Source: Streptomyces megasporus (lineage in GTDB: Bacteria > Actinomycetota > Actinomycetes > Streptomycetales > Streptomycetaceae). From it: a DNA stretch of 64,000 bases. The DNA is taken from positions 1 through 64,000 of the forward strand of contig NZ_JODL01000021.1 in NCBI RefSeq assembly GCF_000718985.1, read 5' to 3'. Each line of letters opens with the position of its first letter. The first letter of the stretch is position 1. Below are positions 9,013 to 58,541 of the stretch, one piece after another. A model generated the notes under the pieces. That model saw nothing but the letters and a program-made list of their open reading frames with translations. It made no database searches and had not been told where the DNA came from. Position numbers and translations under genes: made by a program.

Positions 9013-9101
9013 TCCCGCGTGCCGCGTTCCGTCCTCCCGCTCCCCGTCCCCGCGCTCCCCGTCCTCCCGCGCCGTGTGCCGCGTGCCGTCGGCGGGACGG
9101 T

Positions 9102-11243
9102 TCACAGGCTCGGACGATGCGGCACCCCTCCGGCCACCGCGCGCTGTCGCGGCGCCGCCGTGCCCGTCCAGCAGCTTCCGCGGCGGGCCAGCAGGCGGCG
9201 CAGCCAGACCTCGGTGGAGACCAGTTCCGCCAGCCCGTCCAGCGGCAGCGGTTCGCCCTCGGCCGCCGCGCGCAGGGCCTTGCGCACGACGCGGGCCTCG
9301 ATCAGCCCGGCGTCGGCGAGCAGGGGCGCGTCGAAGAGGTCGACGAGTTCGCCGATCCGGGACCGCAGCCCCGTCCGCACGGCCGCCACCTGCGTCGCCT
9401 GGGAGGGCGTGCCCCAGCCGGGCGGCAGGTCGTGGATGCCCGCGCCCGCCAGGACGGCCCGCAGGACGGACGCCCGTGCCCCCGGTTGGACGCGCAGGGA
9501 CTCGGGAAGCGCGCGGCAGGCCCGGACGACCTGGTTGTCCAGGAAGGGCGCGTGCAGTCGCTGGCCGCGGACCTCCGCGGCCTGGTCGAGGACCCGGTGG
9601 TCGGCCGCCAACCGGGCGAGCGCGGCCCGCGCCCGTCGTTCGCCCGGACGCGCCCCGGCCTCCGGGGAGGCCGGGCGCAGGGCCGCATGCTCCAGGCGAA
9701 TCGATACTTCGGCCAATACCTCTCCGGTCAGCCAGCCTGCCGCGGGCCCCGGACGGCACCAGGCGAGGGCGGCGAGCGAGGCGTCCAACACCCCGAGCGT
9801 GCCGTCGGGCCCGGCCTCCCACGCGACATCGCGTTCCCGCAGTCGCCGCGCGGCCTCCAACACCCCGTCCCGGTAAGGGGTACGGGCCAGTCTGCGCGCC
9901 GCGCGGTAGACGGTGAGCGGGACGAGCACCGCCCGTCCGGCCGTTCCCTCCGCCCGCGCCAGCGCCGTGACCGGCCGCAGCAGGTGGCGGCGGCGCCGGT
10001 CGAGCAACAGGTCGGCCAGCCGGGCCGGGTGCGCGTCGAGCGCCTGGCGGGCGCCGTGGCCGGTCAGATGGTCGGCGCTGCCCGCGGCCAGGCGCCGTCG
10101 GTGGCGTTCGGCGACGACCAGCGAGGGGCCGGGTTCGTCGGTCAGCGGTCCGTCGAGGAGCGAGCCGCCGTCCGGCCCGGCGTACGGCAGGGCCTCCTCC
10201 CCCGCCGCGACGACGACGTGGTGCAGCCGGGGGTTCTCGGCGATGCCGCGGGCGCGTTCCAGTTCGGCCTCGCGGCCCGAACGGGGGTCAAGCGTCAGGT
10301 CGTTGAAGGTGACGGCGAGCAGCCGCTCGCCCGCCGACGTCCCCGGTGTGCCGTACACCGTGCCCGGCATCCCCGGCAGTCCGGCAGCCAGCAGCGCGAG
10401 CGTCGCCGACGCGCTGCCGCCGGAGAGGTCCGCGCCGACGCCGGGCGCCGGTCCTCTCACCGGCCGGCCCGCGCGGCGCTGGGCGGGTCCCATGCCGGGG
10501 ATCGGTCCGGGGTCGAGGGTGTCGAGGTCGGGCACGGGCGCGTGGCGCGGACTGGCCAGCCGCACCCGGACGGCCTCCACCAGCGCGTCGCGGACGCCGG
10601 CGACCGCGGCGTCCGCGTCCACCGGAGGCGCGGCGACGACGGTGGGCACGGCGGGTTCGTAGCCGGCGATCTCGCGGCTGCGGCCGTCGCGCATGATCAG
10701 CGCGTGACCGGGCGGTACGCGGCGCACGCCCGCATAGGGGGTGCCGTCGCCCAGGGCCTCGGGCGCGTCGGGGCAGGCGAGCAGGGCGGCGAGGTGACCG
10801 ACGTCGAGTTGGGCCTCGATCAGGTCGGCGAGCGGCAGCGCGGCGGTGGCGTAGGCGGTGCCGCCCGCCCACGGGGTGTGGAAGACGGGCCGGGCGCCGG
10901 CGAGGTCGGTGGTGACGGTGACGCGGCGGCCGACGCGGACCACGACGGTGTAACTGCCGGGCCAGGCGGTGAGATGGCGCAGGGCACCGCCGCGGGCGGC
11001 GTACAGCGCGGTGCGCAGCGCGTCGTCGGAGGCGCCGCAACAGCCCAGGACCGCGAGCTTGTTGCCGCCGTCGACCTCGACCATGCGCACCTCGTCGGGC
11101 CGCCAGTCGCCGACGGCCCACAGGGGGTCGGGGCCACCCCACAACTGTCGCGCGCCGACCGGCTGGATGGTGTGCCCGGGACGGGGAACGGCGATGCTCG
11201 CGCCGTGTGCGTTGTCTGCGGCCCATCCGACCAACCACCGCAT
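9102..11243 (-). CDS. Asparagine synthetase-like (AsnB/lasso-cyclase superfamily) protein
   Basis: A 713-residue protein with an N-terminal Ntn-amidohydrolase-like half (about 1-215, including [14 protein letters not shown] and [17 protein letters not shown]) and a C-terminal PP-loop ATPase-like half. The nucleophile Cys2 of true class II glutaminases is missing, because the protein starts MRWLVGW. The PP-loop reads [15 protein letters not shown] instead of the usual [18 protein letters not shown] is the conserved AsnB C-terminal motif. ATG 11243 is chosen for its GGAGG site 5 nt upstream, although the frame stays open to 11432. No precursor peptide or RiPP protease gene is adjacent. Function is unknown; free asparagine synthesis is unlikely. 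Confidence 0.75.
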
Positions 11244-29451: not shown

Positions 29452-29525
29452 GGCTGGGTAGCTCAGTTGGTACGAGCGTCCGCCTGAAAAGCGGAAGGTC
29501 GCCGGTTCGACCCCGGCCCCAGCCA
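29452..29525 (+). tRNA. tRNA-Phe (anticodon GAA), integration target
   Basis: A 74-nt cloverleaf with acceptor GGCTGGG/CCCAGCC and anticodon GAA in CGCCTGAAAAGCGG. Its 3' half from 29481 onward, plus the terminator, is repeated at 34112-34219. This marks it as the attachment site of an integrated element that left the tRNA intact. Confidence 0.95.
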
Positions 29526-29588
29526 CCGCAGGAAAGCCCCCGTGCGAGCCCGCTCGCCGGGGGTTCTTCCGTATCCGAACACTCTCGG
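29481..29588 (+). repeat. Left attachment-site repeat (3' tRNA-Phe plus terminator)
   Basis: It matches 34112-34219 at 105 of 108 positions, and weaker similarity continues about 20 bp further (CTTTCCACCCGGC against CTTTCCGTCCGGC). Confidence 0.85.
29535..29565 (+). terminator. Terminator of the tRNA cluster
   Basis: CCCCCG and CGGGGG pair, then GCGAG and CTCGC with a bulged T and loop CCCG, followed by TTCTT. A copy with one changed base lies at 34166-34196. Confidence 0.75.
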
Positions 29589-29639
29589 CACCCACGTCTT
29601 TCCACCCGGCAAGGCCGCGGAATCCTCGTGCGCGAGCCG

Positions 29640-30021
29640 GGACGGCTCCTCCGCTCGGAAACACCGCCACAGGACATCGCCGGGCGCCTGAACGTGCCAG
29701 GCCATGAGCCGGCACAGATCGCCTCGATCTACCTCCGGTAAGACGAGACGCAGGGCACCGCGCATGCGGCCCAAGACCGGCCCGCACGGCGTCTACGGGC
29801 GACTCGAAGAGCCGGGGCACGTCATGACCCGCGTGCGCGACGAGATCAGCGCTCGCATGCCGACGCCGGAGGAAGCCGCCGTCTTGGAGCTCCTGCCCGG
29901 TGTCCCGGTCCTGGAAGTGCCGCACACCAGCCTCGACCAGGACGGCGTTCCCTTCGAGGTCTCCCGCTACGTGCACCGCGCGGACCAGACCGGATTACTG
30001 TACGAACTGCCCGTCGAGTAG
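29640..30021 (+). pseudogene. Truncated GntR/UTRA-domain regulator
   Basis: Only the effector-binding part of a GntR-HutC regulator survives. PPQDIAGRLNV and EPAQIASIYLR in one frame match the start of a UTRA domain. An in-frame TAG and then a frameshift near 29770 intervene before TGPHGVYGRLEEPGH, which begins the intact tail ISARMPTPEEAAVLELLPG to the stop at 30021. The HTH domain is missing. Family members such as KorSA repress transfer genes in pSAM2-like elements, which fits the integrated-element context. A short translated product from 29761 cannot be excluded. Confidence 0.65.
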
Positions 30022-30033
30022 CCAGGAGTCCGC

Positions 30034-30546
30034 ATGGAAAGCCCGAGAGTCCGCCCGTTCGAGGAAGCCGATCTGCCCGGCACAGCGGCGGCACTGGTGG
30101 AGGTGCACGCGACGGACGGGTATCCCGTCGAAGGGGTCGCCGACCCGGAAGCCTGGCTGCGGTCGGATGACGTGTTGGCTTCCTGGGTGGCAGAGGCCGA
30201 CGACCAGGTCATCGGACATGTGGCAGTGATGAGCCCCAACGGCGAGGACGCCGTGTCTCTCTGGACCCGGCAGAGCGGAGAGAGTCATGAGCGCGTGGCC
30301 GTACTCGGCCGACTCTTCGTGACCAAGAGCGCCCGGAAGCAAGCCCTGGGCGAGAAGCTGATGCGGACCGCGACGACCTACGCGCAGGCCCGTGGACTCC
30401 GCCTGGTGCTCGACGTCATGACGAAGGACACCGCCGCCATACGCCTCTACGAGCGCCTTGGGTGGCGCAGGATCGGCGAGACCACGCACCACTATGGCGA
30501 CGGCCAACAGACCAGCGCCCTTTGCTACGTCTCGCCATCCAGCTAG
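30034..30546 (+). CDS. GNAT-family N-acetyltransferase
   Basis: A 170-residue GNAT protein. The core runs from VRPFEEADLPGTAAALVEVH through VAVLGRLFVTKSARKQALGE, which carries the acetyl-CoA-binding loop, to AAIRLYERLGWRRIGET. It starts 12 nt after the GntR remnant and ATG 30034 follows CAGGAG. The substrate is unknown; GNATs next to GntR regulators are common on actinomycete elements. The stop TAG (30544-30546) lies exactly on the IS630 target TA, and the uninterrupted site would have encoded the same stop. Confidence 0.85.
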   Translation: MESPRVRPFEEADLPGTAAALVEVHATDGYPVEGVADPEAWLRSDDVLASWVAEADDQVIGHVAVMSPNGEDAVSLWTRQSGESHERVAVLGRLFVTKSARKQALGEKLMRTATTYAQARGLRLVLDVMTKDTAAIRLYERLGWRRIGETTHHYGDGQQTSALCYVSPSS

Positions 30547-31634
30547 TCTCCTGAGTCGGGAATTCTGTTCAGATATGCAGCGAGGCGTTCGAGGATCTCG
30601 TCCGCGGTCTTGGTCCACACGTAGGGCCTGGGGTTGGTGTTCCACCTGGCGATCCAGTCGCGGATGTCGCGTTCGAGGGCCTGGACGGAGCGGTGGACGC
30701 CTCGCCGTATCTGTTTGTTGGTCAACTCGGCGAACCACCGCTCCACCAGATTCAGCCAGGACGCCCCGGTGGGGGTGAAGTGCAGGTGAAACCGGGGATG
30801 AGCCAGCAGCCACTTCTTGATCGCGGGGGTCTTGTGGGTGGCGTAGTTGTCCAGCACCAGGTGGATGTCCAGACCGGCGGGCACTTCCTTGTCGAGCTTG
30901 ACCAGGAACTTGTTGAACTCCTCGGCGCGGTGCCGGCGGTGCAGGGAGCCGATCACCTTCCCCGTGGCCACCTCCAGGGCGGCAAAGAGGGTGGTGGTGC
31001 CGGCGCGGACGTAGTCGTGGGTGAGCCGCTGCGGAACTCCCGGCATCATCGGCAGCACCGGCTGGGAGCGGTCCAGCGCCTGGATCTGGCTCTTCTCGTC
31101 CACACAGAACACCAGCGCCCGCTCGGGCGGATCGAGGTAGAGGCCGACCACGTCGTGCACCTTGTCGACGAAGTACGGGTCGGTGGACAGCTTGAAGGTC
31201 TCGGACCGGTGCGGCTGCAGGCCGAAGGCCCGCCAGATCCGCGAGACGGTCGACTGCGACAGACCCATCTCCTTGGCCATGGACCGCGTTGACCAGTGCG
31301 TGGCGTTCCGCGGCGCGGTCTCCAGCGTCTTGGTGACGACCGCGGCGACCTGCTCGTCGCTCACCGATCTGGGGCCTCCAGAGCGCGGCATGTCCCCCAA
31401 TCCGGCGATGCGGTACAGCACGAACCGGGCCCGCCACCGGCCCACCGCATGGGCCGTGGTGCCCAGCCGGGCCGCCACGTCCTTGTTCGTCGCTCCCTCG
31501 GCGCAGGCCAGGATGATCCGGCAGCGCAGCGCCCAGGCCTGCGGGGTGGAACGGCGCCGCACCCAGCCCTCCAGCGCGGCCCGCTCCTCGTCCGTCAGGA
31601 TCAATTCGGCCTTTGGCCGCCCGGTACGCGCCAT
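30543..31634 (-). CDS. IS630-family transposase
   Basis: A 363-residue DDE transposase. The N-terminal helix-turn-helix region (ACAEGATNKDVAARLGTTAH and GLSQSTVSRIWRAFGL) gives paired-type DNA binding. Catalytic residues appear as FCVDEKSQIQA, LVLDNYATHK and WLNLVERWFAE (D, D, E). The length is normal and the frame is uninterrupted, so it is probably active. Its stop TAG is completed by target bases. Codon use resembles other Streptomyces genes. Confidence 0.93.
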   Translation of the reverse strand: MARTGRPKAELILTDEERAALEGWVRRRSTPQAWALRCRIILACAEGATNKDVAARLGTTAHAVGRWRARFVLYRIAGLGDMPRSGGPRSVSDEQVAAVVTKTLETAPRNATHWSTRSMAKEMGLSQSTVSRIWRAFGLQPHRSETFKLSTDPYFVDKVHDVVGLYLDPPERALVFCVDEKSQIQALDRSQPVLPMMPGVPQRLTHDYVRAGTTTLFAALEVATGKVIGSLHRRHRAEEFNKFLVKLDKEVPAGLDIHLVLDNYATHKTPAIKKWLLAHPRFHLHFTPTGASWLNLVERWFAELTNKQIRRGVHRSVQALERDIRDWIARWNTNPRPYVWTKTADEILERLAAYLNRIPDSGD

Positions 31635-31680
31635 GCGCCGAGCCTACACTTCTGAACAGAACTCCTGACTCAGAAGACTA
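30544..31680 (-). mobile_element. IS630-family insertion sequence
   Basis: Inverted ends of 31 bp (30543-30573 and 31651-31681) match at 28 positions; the left end reads CTAGTCTCCTGAGTCGGG. The element proper is 30546-31678, flanked by a TA duplication within CTAG, the known IS630 target. A single transposase fills it. The target is the overlapped stop codons of two convergent genes, both of which remain intact. Confidence 0.88.
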
Positions 31681-32523
31681 GATGATCTGCTGCTGTCCCT
31701 GTTGCGGCTGGTCAAGTTGCTGTTCCCTCATGCGCTGTTCTGCGCGCAGTTTTTCCACAGCGGTGGCAAAGTTTTCGAGGTTTATGGATTCTTCAGCCGC
31801 ATTGTACGGAGCAATACCCAAATCCAAAGCAGTCGCGTGTTCCTCGATACTGTCTGCCGTTTGCTGAAGATTGAAGGCTCTCTCTCGCGGCTTGAAGTAT
31901 CCAGCCGCTGCAGTGATCACCGTAACAGTGAAGCCAAGAGCGATTAGCACTCCCTTTCCGGGTTGAGGCGGATCGTACCAAGCGGTTACTGCGGAGACCC
32001 CTGCCGAGCTAAGGAAAAGTAGCCACTGCATCACGAGATGAACACGCCGATAGTGTCGTGACTCTGCGCGCAACCGGGCTACCTCCGCTGGCAGCCTTTC
32101 CTTATATGATGCCTGTCGGTCGACAGGAGGAGGAGTGCGCCGTCTAGCTTCTAGGATGTGCCACTCCTCAGCCAAAGAAAGCTCAAGAAGGAGCTTCCTG
32201 ACCGGGGTCTTAGCATCTCTCCAGGTTGCAGGTTCAGAGAACTCGGCGATCGCCTGGGCAATAAAGGCGATAACTAAAATCAAGGTAGCGCCGCCGAATA
32301 TTCCGTTAATTGCAGTCGGAGTGTCCGAGTTCAGCCAGACGAGAACCTTTAGACTGACCCAAGTAAGCAGCGTGGCAGCGATGACGATTGGAGTGCCGTA
32401 AAGTCCGGCAATCTGCAGGCGGCGATTTCTGATGCGCTCCTTGAAGTCGGCAATCTCGCGACGATGCTCGATTAGAGCATCAGTGGTTACTGCGGTAACA
32501 ATGGTTCGTGCTGGTCCAGTCAT
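31678..32523 (-). CDS. DUF4231/SLATT-like membrane protein
   Basis: A 281-residue protein with four hydrophobic spans: GTPIVIAATLLTWVSLKVLV (about 44-63), GATLILVIAFIAQAIAEF (about 78-95), VMQWLLFLSSAGVSAVTAWY (near 167-186) and LIALGFTVTVITAAAGYF (near 195-212). The segment YKERLPAEVARLRAESRHYR before the third span, and the helical NLQQTADSIEEHATALDL after the fourth, resemble DUF4231/SLATT proteins. SLATT proteins are predicted pore-forming effectors linked to nucleotide-sensing defence. ATG 32521-32523 has GGGGGAAAG upstream. Its codons are visibly AT-richer than neighbouring genes, suggesting transfer. The family assignment is by resemblance only. Confidence 0.6.
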   Translation of the reverse strand: MTGPARTIVTAVTTDALIEHRREIADFKERIRNRRLQIAGLYGTPIVIAATLLTWVSLKVLVWLNSDTPTAINGIFGGATLILVIAFIAQAIAEFSEPATWRDAKTPVRKLLLELSLAEEWHILEARRRTPPPVDRQASYKERLPAEVARLRAESRHYRRVHLVMQWLLFLSSAGVSAVTAWYDPPQPGKGVLIALGFTVTVITAAAGYFKPRERAFNLQQTADSIEEHATALDLGIAPYNAAEESINLENFATAVEKLRAEQRMREQQLDQPQQGQQQII

Positions 32524-33025
32524 TAGCTACTTTCCCCCCTTCAGCAGGGATCCCAGGAGAGGAGAGCGGATCGTGGTCCCCCGAAGCCAATTACTCATTC
32601 GCGGGTTCAGAGCATCCGGCATGCGTCAGATCATACGGACGCCGAAGAGAGTAAACGATGGTGTTGGCTGAACTGCCGTACAGCAGGCTGGGAGACACCA
32701 CCGGCCTCTCAGAGTCTGTTGTGGGGTGTCATGGAACACTATTGCGCGAAGTTCAAACGCCCACGTGACCGCACCAGATGGCAGACCGCCCGGACGACCC
32801 GTTGGAGCCCTCCCGCACTCATGGCTCTTCGACTCCTGACATCAACGACAGCGCACAGCCATACCCTGGAACGGTCTAGTAGAACAGTAGGAGGCCCCAA
32901 CACCTATGAGTGCACAGCTTCAGTGATCGAACTTACAAGGCAGTGATCGCACCAGTAACTGAGCAGTTTTGGGCCTCCTGAGCCGTTATCGCAGCTAATG
33001 GCCCTCCTGCGGTTGACCCACAGCG
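32524..33025. other. AT-richer gap inside the integrated element
   Basis: No convincing gene. An inverted pair AGGAGGCCC (about 32890) and GGGCCTCCT (about 32971) brackets a short stretch with two CAGTGATCG copies, possibly remnants of a lost element gene. A frame from 32719 to 32946 has no family features. Confidence 0.4.
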
Positions 33026-33682
33026 CTACTCCAACGCCTCGCTCACGGAGGCCGAGTGCTCCGGGCAGTAGACGGGAGGCGCCTTGATGACCATCACTCG
33101 GCCTGCCTCTCCCGGGTATCCGCCCTGCATGGTCTCGACCACCTCCTCCGGGCTATCGCCCATGTCCAGCAGCGTGCACACGGCCTGCCCCTGAGCACCG
33201 AGAGCACCGTCTTCCGCGCGTGCCAGCGACGGTGCCTGTGCCTTGACCGCAGCCGCATAACGAGAGTCCCGCTCGGTTGCCTGCGTCGAGTCGTCTGTCT
33301 CGGGCGACTCGCTGGCCCCGGAAGGCTTTGACGGTACTTCGGGCGTCTCCTCATCGGGGGGTAGCCCGCACTCCTGCCGGCTCGCCGCCACGGTGAACGA
33401 GGCCGCCTGCCCGTTGACCTCTTGGCCGCACACCACCCATGAGTCGTACTCAGGGCCGCTTCGGTACTCCTTCTCCGTGTCTCGGAAGCCGAACAAGACC
33501 CCTGAGTCGCTCAGGGCAGCCTCTGTCTCTCCCTTGGTCCTGCCCACGAAGTTGGCGATAGACGGGCTGGCAGCGACGGTCTCTCGCCCCCCCGTCCTTG
33601 CTGGCACATCGGTGGAGTCCGAGGAGCAGCCCACCAGAGCGGCAAGCGCAGCGGCACAAAGCACGACCGTACGGATGCGCAC
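33026..33682 (-). CDS. Lipoprotein with PASTA-like and DUF732-like segments
   Basis: A 218-residue protein. GTG 33682 starts VRIRTVVLCAAALAALVGC, a signal peptide with a lipobox Cys near residue 19. After a spacer, NFVGRTKGETEAALSDSGV resembles the start of a PASTA module. The C-terminal segment AAVKAQAPSLARAEDGALGA to VYCPEH, with paired cysteines, resembles DUF732 secreted domains of actinobacteria. It is probably exported and anchored to the membrane. It sits at the right end of the tRNA-Phe element. The frame is open upstream to 33826 but lacks a ribosome site. Confidence 0.7.
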   Translation of the reverse strand: MRIRTVVLCAAALAALVGCSSDSTDVPARTGGRETVAASPSIANFVGRTKGETEAALSDSGVLFGFRDTEKEYRSGPEYDSWVVCGQEVNGQAASFTVAASRQECGLPPDEETPEVPSKPSGASESPETDDSTQATERDSRYAAAVKAQAPSLARAEDGALGAQGQAVCTLLDMGDSPEEVVETMQGGYPGEAGRVMVIKAPPVYCPEHSASVSEALE

Positions 33683-34111
33683 AGAGATTCCCCCACCGAA
33701 AATGACCACTAAACCAGCGTGCGCGCACAGTAGCGTGCCATACCAGGGCTTGTCTGGCTCTTGAGGGCTTTGCCCGCATTCCCTTGGGTGTCTGGTTACA
33801 GCTCGACGCCGTACCAGAGCTGACATCTATGCCTGACGCCAACAGCAGTGGACAGGCGCAGACCTGAATGGCGCGCTACGGAGCGGGAGCGCGCCCCGGG
33901 GCGCGGCAGTCCAGCATTGACCGGCGCATCGATCGAACTTGTACGGCGGCGGTCAGGTCGGTCTGTGCGCATCAACCGGGCCGTCACCGGACGCGGCTGA
34001 CGGCAGTCTGACGGCAACGTCAGCGAACGCCGCCGTACGCAGCCGTACGTCATGAGCTGTCAACCTCGGTCGTTGCCGGGCCGGAAGGTGATCCACTCCG
34101 TACGATCAACT
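33683..34111. other. Intergenic segment beside the right attachment site
   Basis: No gene is supported. It contains GTACGGCGGCG (33941-33951) and its inverse CGCCGCCGTAC (34028-34038), plus adjacent CTGACGGCA copies near 33999-34018. Such repeats could be integrase arm-binding sites left after loss of the integrase gene. Confidence 0.4.
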
Positions 34112-34219
34112 CGCCTGAAAAGCGGAAGGTCGCCGGTTCGCCCCCGGCCCCAGCCACCGCAGGAAAGCCCCCGTGCGAGCTCGCTCGCCGGGGGTTCTTC
34201 CGTATCCGAACGCTCTCGG
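34112..34219 (+). repeat. Right attachment-site repeat (partial tRNA-Phe)
   Basis: A copy of the 3' half of tRNA-Phe and its terminator, starting within the anticodon arm. The preceding bases do not form a D arm or acceptor strand, so it is not a functional tRNA. Three substitutions distinguish it from the left copy. Confidence 0.85.
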
Positions 34220-34439: not shown

Positions 34440-34954
34440 TCAGGAAATCCACATCAGTACGGTGTCGCCCTCGCGGGCCGCGGCGGTGAGGAAGCGCCTC
34501 GGCTCCCCGTAGTGCCCGCGCACGTACTCCGGCACGCTCTCCCACCTCGTCCCGGATGGACGGGTACACGTCCGCCTCGGCCGGGTCGGCCGCGCGGACC
34601 TCGCGTGTCAGTGCCTCGAACGGCAGCCCGGCCGGGGACTCCGCCGCGGCGGCCACGCGCTCGGGGACGAGGTGGCGGGGCGGGGTGTGACCACCCGGTC
34701 GCCGGCGCCCGGGATCGCCTCCTCGCCGAAGACGATGTCGACGGGAAGGCGGGGAAGGCGGCGCGCTCCAGCAGGACGCGGATGGCGTCCCGCACCTTGT
34801 CGACGTCCAGGCAGCGGGCCTCCTCGGCGGACGTCTCGGTGCCCCAGGCCGCCTCGCGCAAGGCGAGGACGAACCCATGCGCCCACTCCGAGTCGCCGAG
34901 CATCCACTCGAACTCGTCCGGGGTGAGGCGTGCGTGCTCCCCGATCGCTCCCAT
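34440..34954 (-). pseudogene. DUF1877-family gene with several frameshifts
   Basis: Family blocks appear in order but in different frames. MGAIGEHARLTPDEFEWML to LLERAAFPAFP lies in the first; VDIVFGEEAIPGAGDRVVTP is in a second (shift near 34750); VPERVAAAAESPAGLPFEAL to DVYPSIRDE is in a third (shift near 34670); and VPEYVRGHYGEPRRFLTAAA with stop TGA at 34440 needs another shift near 34540. The intact family is about 165-170 residues. It adjoins the right attachment site. Multiple sequencing errors are an alternative to decay. Confidence 0.65.
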
Positions 34955-35000
34955 GCCGCGAACGGTGGGGGTGGCACCGACAACCACGTCCGGCCGGCCG

Positions 35001-54106: not shown

Positions 54107-54144
54107 GAAAGACGCGCCGCTCGGTGAGAGCCGGGTGGTGGCAC

Positions 54145-54217
54145 GCGGACGTAGCTCAGTTGGTAGAGCGCAACCTTGCCAAGGTTGAGGTCGCGAGTTC
54201 GAGCCTCGTCGTCCGCT
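54145..54217 (+). tRNA. tRNA-Gly (anticodon GCC), copy 1
   Basis: A 73-nt cloverleaf: GCGGACG/CGTCCGC acceptor, CAACC/GGTTG anticodon stem with loop TTGCCAA giving GCC. It is identical to 58294-58366. Confidence 0.95.
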
Positions 54218-54225
54218 CGGTGGTC

Positions 54226-54256
54226 AAGGCCCCGATCCCCAAGGGATCGGGGCCTT
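54226..54256 (+). terminator. Terminator of tRNA-Gly copy 1
   Basis: A 14-bp stem, AAGGCCCCGATCCC with GGGATCGGGGCCTT, loop CAA, followed by GTTCGTG. Confidence 0.8.
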
Positions 54257-54410
54257 GTTCGTGTCTCCGTGTGCCCGTGTGTTCGGGCGGGCCGGGCGTC
54301 CGCGTTCCTCCCCGCCCTCCCCGCCCGAGCGATGCCCGGTTGACATTTGTCACACGCACTCGTGACAGCCCGCACTGCTCGCCCTCCGATTCCCGCGAAA
54401 CCCTGGGCCC

Positions 54411-58236: not shown

Positions 58237-58293
58237 TGGTCAGCGCACCGCACGGAAACCACGCCGGGAAGGGTGGATCCGAGTTCGGCGCGC

Positions 58294-58366
58294 GCGGACG
58301 TAGCTCAGTTGGTAGAGCGCAACCTTGCCAAGGTTGAGGTCGCGAGTTCGAGCCTCGTCGTCCGCT
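58294..58366 (+). tRNA. tRNA-Gly (anticodon GCC), copy 2
   Basis: The same 73-nt sequence as 54145-54217. It directly follows the response regulator and has a similar but not identical terminator. The two copies flank the ABC/two-component block in direct orientation. Confidence 0.95.
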
Positions 58367-58374
58367 CGGTGACC

Positions 58375-58405
58375 AGGGCCCCGATCCTTCGAGGATCGGG
58401 GCCCT
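58375..58405 (+). terminator. Terminator of tRNA-Gly copy 2
   Basis: A 14-bp stem (arm AGGGCCCCGATCCT) with loop TCG. It faces purC. Confidence 0.8.
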
Positions 58406-58541
58406 CTCCGTTTCCGCACCGCCGCACCGCCGCTCCCCGGGTCCCGGGGCCCCGTTCCCCCGGCCTCGGCCCGGCGCCTCCCCGGCCGGGGTCGGGGCAC
58501 GGCGGTACGCGCCCCGACGACACCGGCGGCCGGCTCGGCGG

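Follow-up and report, generated by a model that had tools for sequence, protein, structure and literature searches.

We analysed a 64,000-nt stretch of the Streptomyces megasporus genome (contig NZ_JODL01000021.1, positions 1 to 64,000; hereafter the window), and within it a 4.63-kb segment enclosed by two copies of the 3′ half and terminator of a tRNA-Phe gene, very probably the remnant of an integrative element. An intact tRNA-Phe (GAA) gene lies at 29452-29527 (forward strand; called by ARAGORN, and the only full-length match in this genome), and its 3′ half and terminator form the left attachment site copy (attL, 29481-29588, forward strand); the right copy (attR, 34112-34219, forward strand) is a fragment made up of a tRNA-Phe 3′ half and terminator, at which ARAGORN calls no tRNA. 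The two form a direct repeat with 105 of 108 positions identical (the mismatches are at 29510, A/C; 29550, C/T; and 29581, A/G), or 121 of 130 when the comparison is extended. The first mismatch (29510/34141) falls in the T-loop, where TTCGACC becomes TTCGCCC, with the C in the right copy. Among the repeats listed for the 11-kb region (the best 20 of 30 families), the next longest direct repeat is 34 nt, so a chance origin of the duplication is out of the question. Apart from the two att copies, the genome contains a single further match to the tRNA-Phe region, a weak one at a tRNA-Pro gene. Thus the 108-bp duplication, with a whole tRNA on the left and a fragment on the right, is as a preliminary description of this DNA had stated.

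The contents of the segment were judged from the list of open reading frames (ORFs), family scans of the five main ORFs, and tblastn searches with integrase and RepSA. Next to attL lies a gntR pseudogene (about 29607-30021, forward strand; identified by its UTRA domain, PF07702, 7.6e-16, and by DNA alignment), which keeps the UTRA domain and has lost the helix-turn-helix and two internal blocks, its frame being broken near 29763. It is followed by an intact GNAT acetyltransferase gene (30034-30546, forward strand; PF00583, 1.2e-16). An IS630-family insertion sequence (IS; 30543-31681, reverse strand; transposase of 363 aa, NF033545, 1.9e-80) has inverted repeats at 30540-30580 and 31644-31684, occurs as a single copy in this genome, and is bracketed by CTAG at 30543-30546 and 31678-31681. 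These tetramers supply the stop codons of the convergent GNAT and SLATT genes; the duplicated CTAG keeps both stop codons, and the two genes are thus left whole beside the IS. The SLATT gene (31678-32523, reverse strand) encodes a membrane protein of 281 aa with a SLATT domain (NF033634, 2.4e-16, above the cut-off), in a stretch that is A+T-rich (GC content about 0.55, vs about 0.70-0.75 in the flanks). A lipoprotein gene of the DUF732 family with a GTG start (33026-33682, reverse strand; PF05305, 2.4e-5) encodes a lipobox-like LVGCSS, as judged by eye, and the segment closes with the right end of the element (33994-34111, forward strand), containing a pair of TGACGGCA motifs at 33998 and 34009. 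The preliminary description counted two cargo genes and an IS as intact; the IS does look intact, but the number of intact-looking ORFs is three (GNAT, SLATT, and the DUF732 lipoprotein). It also reported that integrase and transfer genes are missing, which our searches bear out: neither the ORF list nor the family scans nor tblastn revealed an integrase gene, or one for replication or transfer, between the att copies. RepSA was not found there by tblastn, other replication domains were absent from the scanned ORFs, and PF01580 (FtsK/SpoIIIE-type TraB) had no match on contig C21 of this genome (G000), which holds the window.

We used the right end as a query against 295 genomes of the genus (the matches listed give minimum numbers), and found a related element at tRNA-Phe in genome G311. 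Its DNA matches window positions 33994-34196 at 77% identity, with a tRNA-Phe gene about 5 kb upstream of the match and tRNA-Phe att copies about 5.1 kb apart. The order in this segment (L114) is tRNA-Phe, integrase (PF00589, 8.7e-23), RepSA (NF041486, 814 bits, against a cut-off of 700), GntR, GNAT, right end, and Phe half; no FtsK/TraB gene was found on its contig. The window is similar to it, in colinear order, across the 3′ part of gntR, GNAT (80% amino acid identity), and the right end. The translated gntR pseudogene shares 89% amino acid identity with the G311 GntR over residues 176-260 and 31% over residues 68-173, and Ka/Ks values against G311 are 0.13/0.68 for GNAT and 0.07/0.59 for the 3′ part of gntR, which mostly reflect the time before decay and carry no weight in the argument below. 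In L114, TGACGGCA pairs 11 nt apart, which are putative integrase arm sites, stand on both sides of the att core (1070/1081 and 5944/5955); in the window there is the right pair only (2 hits vs 0.15 expected from simple shuffles). Since the left pair, the integrase and replication genes, and the N-terminus of gntR are all absent, the missing piece would begin right behind the left terminator and end within gntR. The preliminary description had suggested looking in close relatives for full-length elements with an integrase; the G311 element, though not from a close relative, has an integrase and lies at the same tRNA.

We surveyed the insertion site in 36 genomes of the same genus and obtained 33 site regions; in 27 of them a single stretch holds both tRNA-Phe and hrpA, so that the site could be judged. 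A second Phe half is absent from all 27, also in a looser search of both strands, so the uninterrupted site sought in relatives is present in all of them, supporting insertion in the window. The element-free order is tRNA-Glu, tRNA-Asp, tRNA-Phe, a variable short region (sometimes with a yhgE-like gene), hrpA, and tRNA-Asp. The remaining six sites are not covered by a single stretch in this way: G020 carries an element whose second Phe copy is on another contig; the stretches of G002, G003, G032, and G014 end at contig ends (G014 with a weak 39/46 match); and in G012 hrpA was not seen within 19 kb.

Both pMEA100 and pSE211 integrate into tRNA-Phe genes, and elements at this site recur in the genus. 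Relatives of the G311 integrase (E ≤ 1e-60) occur in 106 of the 295 genomes. Seven of the ten best matches are at tRNA-Phe, in six genomes (G311, G111, G188 twice, G020, G233, and G209); for the remaining three (G009, G017, and G305) tRNA-Arg is the sole tRNA on the stretch. Further sites with two or more Phe halves were found in at least G188, G111, G233, G219, G119, G078, and G173; the integrase at the G219 site is in pieces, and the fetched stretches of G119, G078, and G173 yielded no relative of the G311 integrase, nor did about 45 kb of G203, whose terminator resembles the left copy in the window. In G188 (L121 and L122; C1, about 7013000-7042000) four tRNA-Phe 3′ halves follow one another with two integrases, so that elements stand in tandem at a single site. 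The gntR-GNAT pair is present in 13 of 16 fetched GNAT loci (our genome included), and two of six wider loci (G245 and G019) have the order integrase, repSA, gntR, GNAT, with a TraB domain between rep and gntR in G245 and no TraB listed near the G019 locus. In G195 (L115, about 9100-9234) and G219 (L117, about 9525-9636) we also observed, at places away from tRNA-Phe, sequence that resembles the right end and includes some of the Phe att core; in G195 a RepSA gene with a distant integrase lies downstream of it. These may be attachment sites left over after an integrase swap.

We consider the 4.63-kb segment, at a probability of roughly nine in ten, to be what is left of a pSAM2/RepSA-type integrative element of actinomycetes that inserted into tRNA-Phe and then decayed. 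A tyrosine integrase would have inserted the element into the 3′ half of the gene, with the crossover, by analogy with known integrases, near the start of the repeat. If insertion took place at the anticodon side, the element's own 3′ half and terminator would complete the left, working gene, so that the 3′ half of the tRNA-Phe at 29452-29527 would belong to the element, and the chromosomal 3′ half would have been displaced 4.6 kb downstream to become the right copy. A later deletion, most simply a single event, would then have taken the left arm sites, the integrase gene, repSA, and the start of gntR, sparing the att sites, the 3′ end of gntR, GNAT, and the right end; the remnant also holds the IS630 and two unrelated cargo genes (SLATT and DUF732). 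With the integrase lost, the right Phe half would have no function to keep, and it now has C for A in the T-loop; the element is presumably unable to move itself today. Integrase-mediated insertion into tRNA-Phe followed by decay, as first proposed for this locus, is thus upheld by the single-copy sites in relatives and the integrase-bearing relative in G311.

Several observations weigh against this interpretation. SLATT, DUF732, and IS630 are absent from the G311 element, and for that reason may be later arrivals. None of the genomes in the site survey is a very close relative, and the ancestral element is reconstructed from G311 at 77-81% DNA identity, the compared genomes including no close relative of the species that has either a full copy or an empty site. 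The G209 integrase lies near tRNA-Phe, yet an exact second Phe half was not found in 17.5 kb. In addition, four of the six wider gntR-GNAT loci have no integrase or replication gene in the fetched stretch, so the pair alone is no proof of an actinomycete integrative and conjugative element (AICE). The repeat itself might instead have arisen without site-specific integration, through unequal recombination in the tRNA region or its segmental duplication, since the similarity runs past the tRNA and through the terminator to about 130 nt. However, its first base lies within the tRNA and coincides with the repeat start of the other Phe elements compared, the sequence that immediately precedes the right copy resembles the G311 right end, and in G311, G173, and G020, too, the shared stretches extend into the terminator; the comparison with G311 largely refutes such an origin, to which we give hardly any credence.

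Nor does the segment seem to stand for a hitherto undescribed family of small satellite elements marked by a cargo of their own, as the preliminary description proposed. Its small size would fit such a family, as would the 5.1-kb relative in G311 with no FtsK/TraB gene on its contig and the G019 locus with none found nearby. The relatives, though, encode an integrase and RepSA, which are absent from the window; the extra cargo of the window is not common to them, and with SLATT relatives in 31 of the 295 genomes and the lipoprotein in one, it forms no family with the backbone. AICE remnants and mobilisable relatives are, moreover, already described in the available text of PMC3218068 and PMC9513070. 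We therefore reject this proposal, which we regard as very improbable, for a deletion remnant with a backbone of the pSAM2/RepSA type. Less improbable, if still unlikely, is that the segment can be mobilised even now as a cis-mobilizable element (CIME), with an incoming tRNA-Phe AICE or another resident element excising it either in trans or, by accretion, in cis. The two att copies are still there, integrase-bearing Phe elements occur in the genus (the G188 array has two integrases), and cis-mobilisation in Streptomyces has been published, according to the available portions of PMC9513070 and PMC8369830. On the other side, the left arm-type repeats are gone, the Phe-type integrase finds no counterpart in this genome at E ≤ 1e-60 (weaker hits comprise broken pieces and a single full frame that is distant), and exact excision would leave an altered tRNA-Phe.

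The remnant of an inserted and decayed element is of a known kind: it is a decayed AICE of the pSAM2 type, a CIME-like remnant. With pSAM2-type AICEs (defined by RepSA and a KorSA-like GntR, and here represented by G311) it shares the att repeat, the gntR-GNAT pair, the right end, the TGACGGCA pair, and the gene order; unlike them, it lacks the integrase, repSA, the left arm repeats, and the GntR N-terminus, and has the additional IS630, SLATT, and DUF732 genes. Of the components of a functional AICE (an integrase; a RepSA, RepAM or Prim-Pol initiator; and TraB), none was found between the repeats or, for TraB, on the contig, and the integrase of its own that an autonomous integrative and mobilizable element or satellite has is absent. 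What remains has the marks of an AICE remnant, namely residual genes colinear with a complete element (that of G311) and an att-type repeat at the tRNA 3′ end with the tRNA restored. AICEs, their remnants, defective AICEs (DAICEs), and CIMEs are described in the accessible parts of PMC3218068, PMC9513070, and PMC4891641. DAICEs have likewise lost int or rep and kept direct repeats, but the definition given in the available text of PMC9513070 has traB kept (with int and/or rep lost), and the window has no traB; the same text mentions a traB-less trace at a tRNA-Arg site. Like CIMEs, for example XSAM1 beside pSAM2 (PMC4891641, in its accessible portion), the segment is att-flanked and has no integrase, recombination or transfer genes; unlike XSAM1, it has no adjacent helper.

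The cargo genes differ in their distribution. Relatives of the SLATT protein (E ≤ 1e-20, our genome included) are scattered among the 31 genomes, and no shared neighbour was seen among 13 of their loci (two repeat the same genomes). The protein has no match in phages and matches 32 Streptomyces plasmid records (best identity 44%). The lipoprotein gene was found in our genome only (E ≤ 1e-10), and a set of 5.8 billion proteins contains, besides the lipoprotein itself, five relatives that are 49-53% identical to it. SLATT domains are predicted to act as effectors that form pores (PMC7159879, available text), and one kind acts in phage defence together with a reverse transcriptase (DRT10; PMC12632851, as far as its accessible text describes it). 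The window likewise encodes a SLATT-domain membrane protein, but the ORFs between the repeats include no recognisable reverse transcriptase (UG17 in DRT10-type systems) beside it. Four proteins submitted to PADLOC had no match. With no shared neighbour and no PADLOC match, we did not adopt a SLATT defence system as more than a possibility; as the gene stands alone, a defence role here is a guess.

Elsewhere in the genome, integrase-like, RepSA, TraB-type, and GntR genes adjoin a tRNA-Arg (CCG) gene (L230; G000:C1:201000-220900); the only RepSA gene of the genome is on contig 1, not on the contig of the window. This locus may represent a complete AICE that uses another integrase; a direct repeat of at least 35 nt was not detected in it and its boundaries were not found. 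Broken integrase pieces lie beside tRNA-Pro and tRNA-Thr genes (L145, G000:C23:14000-33000; and L146, G000:C8:126000-144000), and probably mark further decayed elements. In the window, two intact tRNA-Gly genes with similar terminators (54141-54265 and 58290-58414) are 90% identical over 125 nt and 4.15 kb apart; the normal base composition between them suggests an old duplication. Just beyond attR, a weak DUF1877 ORF (34454-34987), without matches in the 37 site stretches compared, is lineage-specific and perhaps another remnant.

The T-loop mismatch suggests what may hold the remnant in place. When we joined the flanks in a script, as exact excision would, ARAGORN still called a tRNA-Phe, now with the T-loop A-to-C change that the outside half carries, so excision would change the one tRNA-Phe gene that was detected in this genome. 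The changed base, which we take to be position 58 in the usual tRNA numbering, is an A that is conserved in tRNAs generally. We tentatively suggest, while thinking it doubtful, that the fossil is fixed by the dependence of the host on its tRNA and not by its cargo: excision would impair the sole tRNA-Phe, and SLATT, possibly a lone defence effector, would ride along. The locus offers a clean example of the in-place decay of a pSAM2-type element, in which the left end, integrase, and replication genes go first while GNAT and the right end stay, and insertions at tRNA-Phe recur within the genus. If the tRNA does not act as a lock, the finding would otherwise be routine annotation; if it does, the lock would be a testable reason why islands without an integrase persist at tRNA genes.

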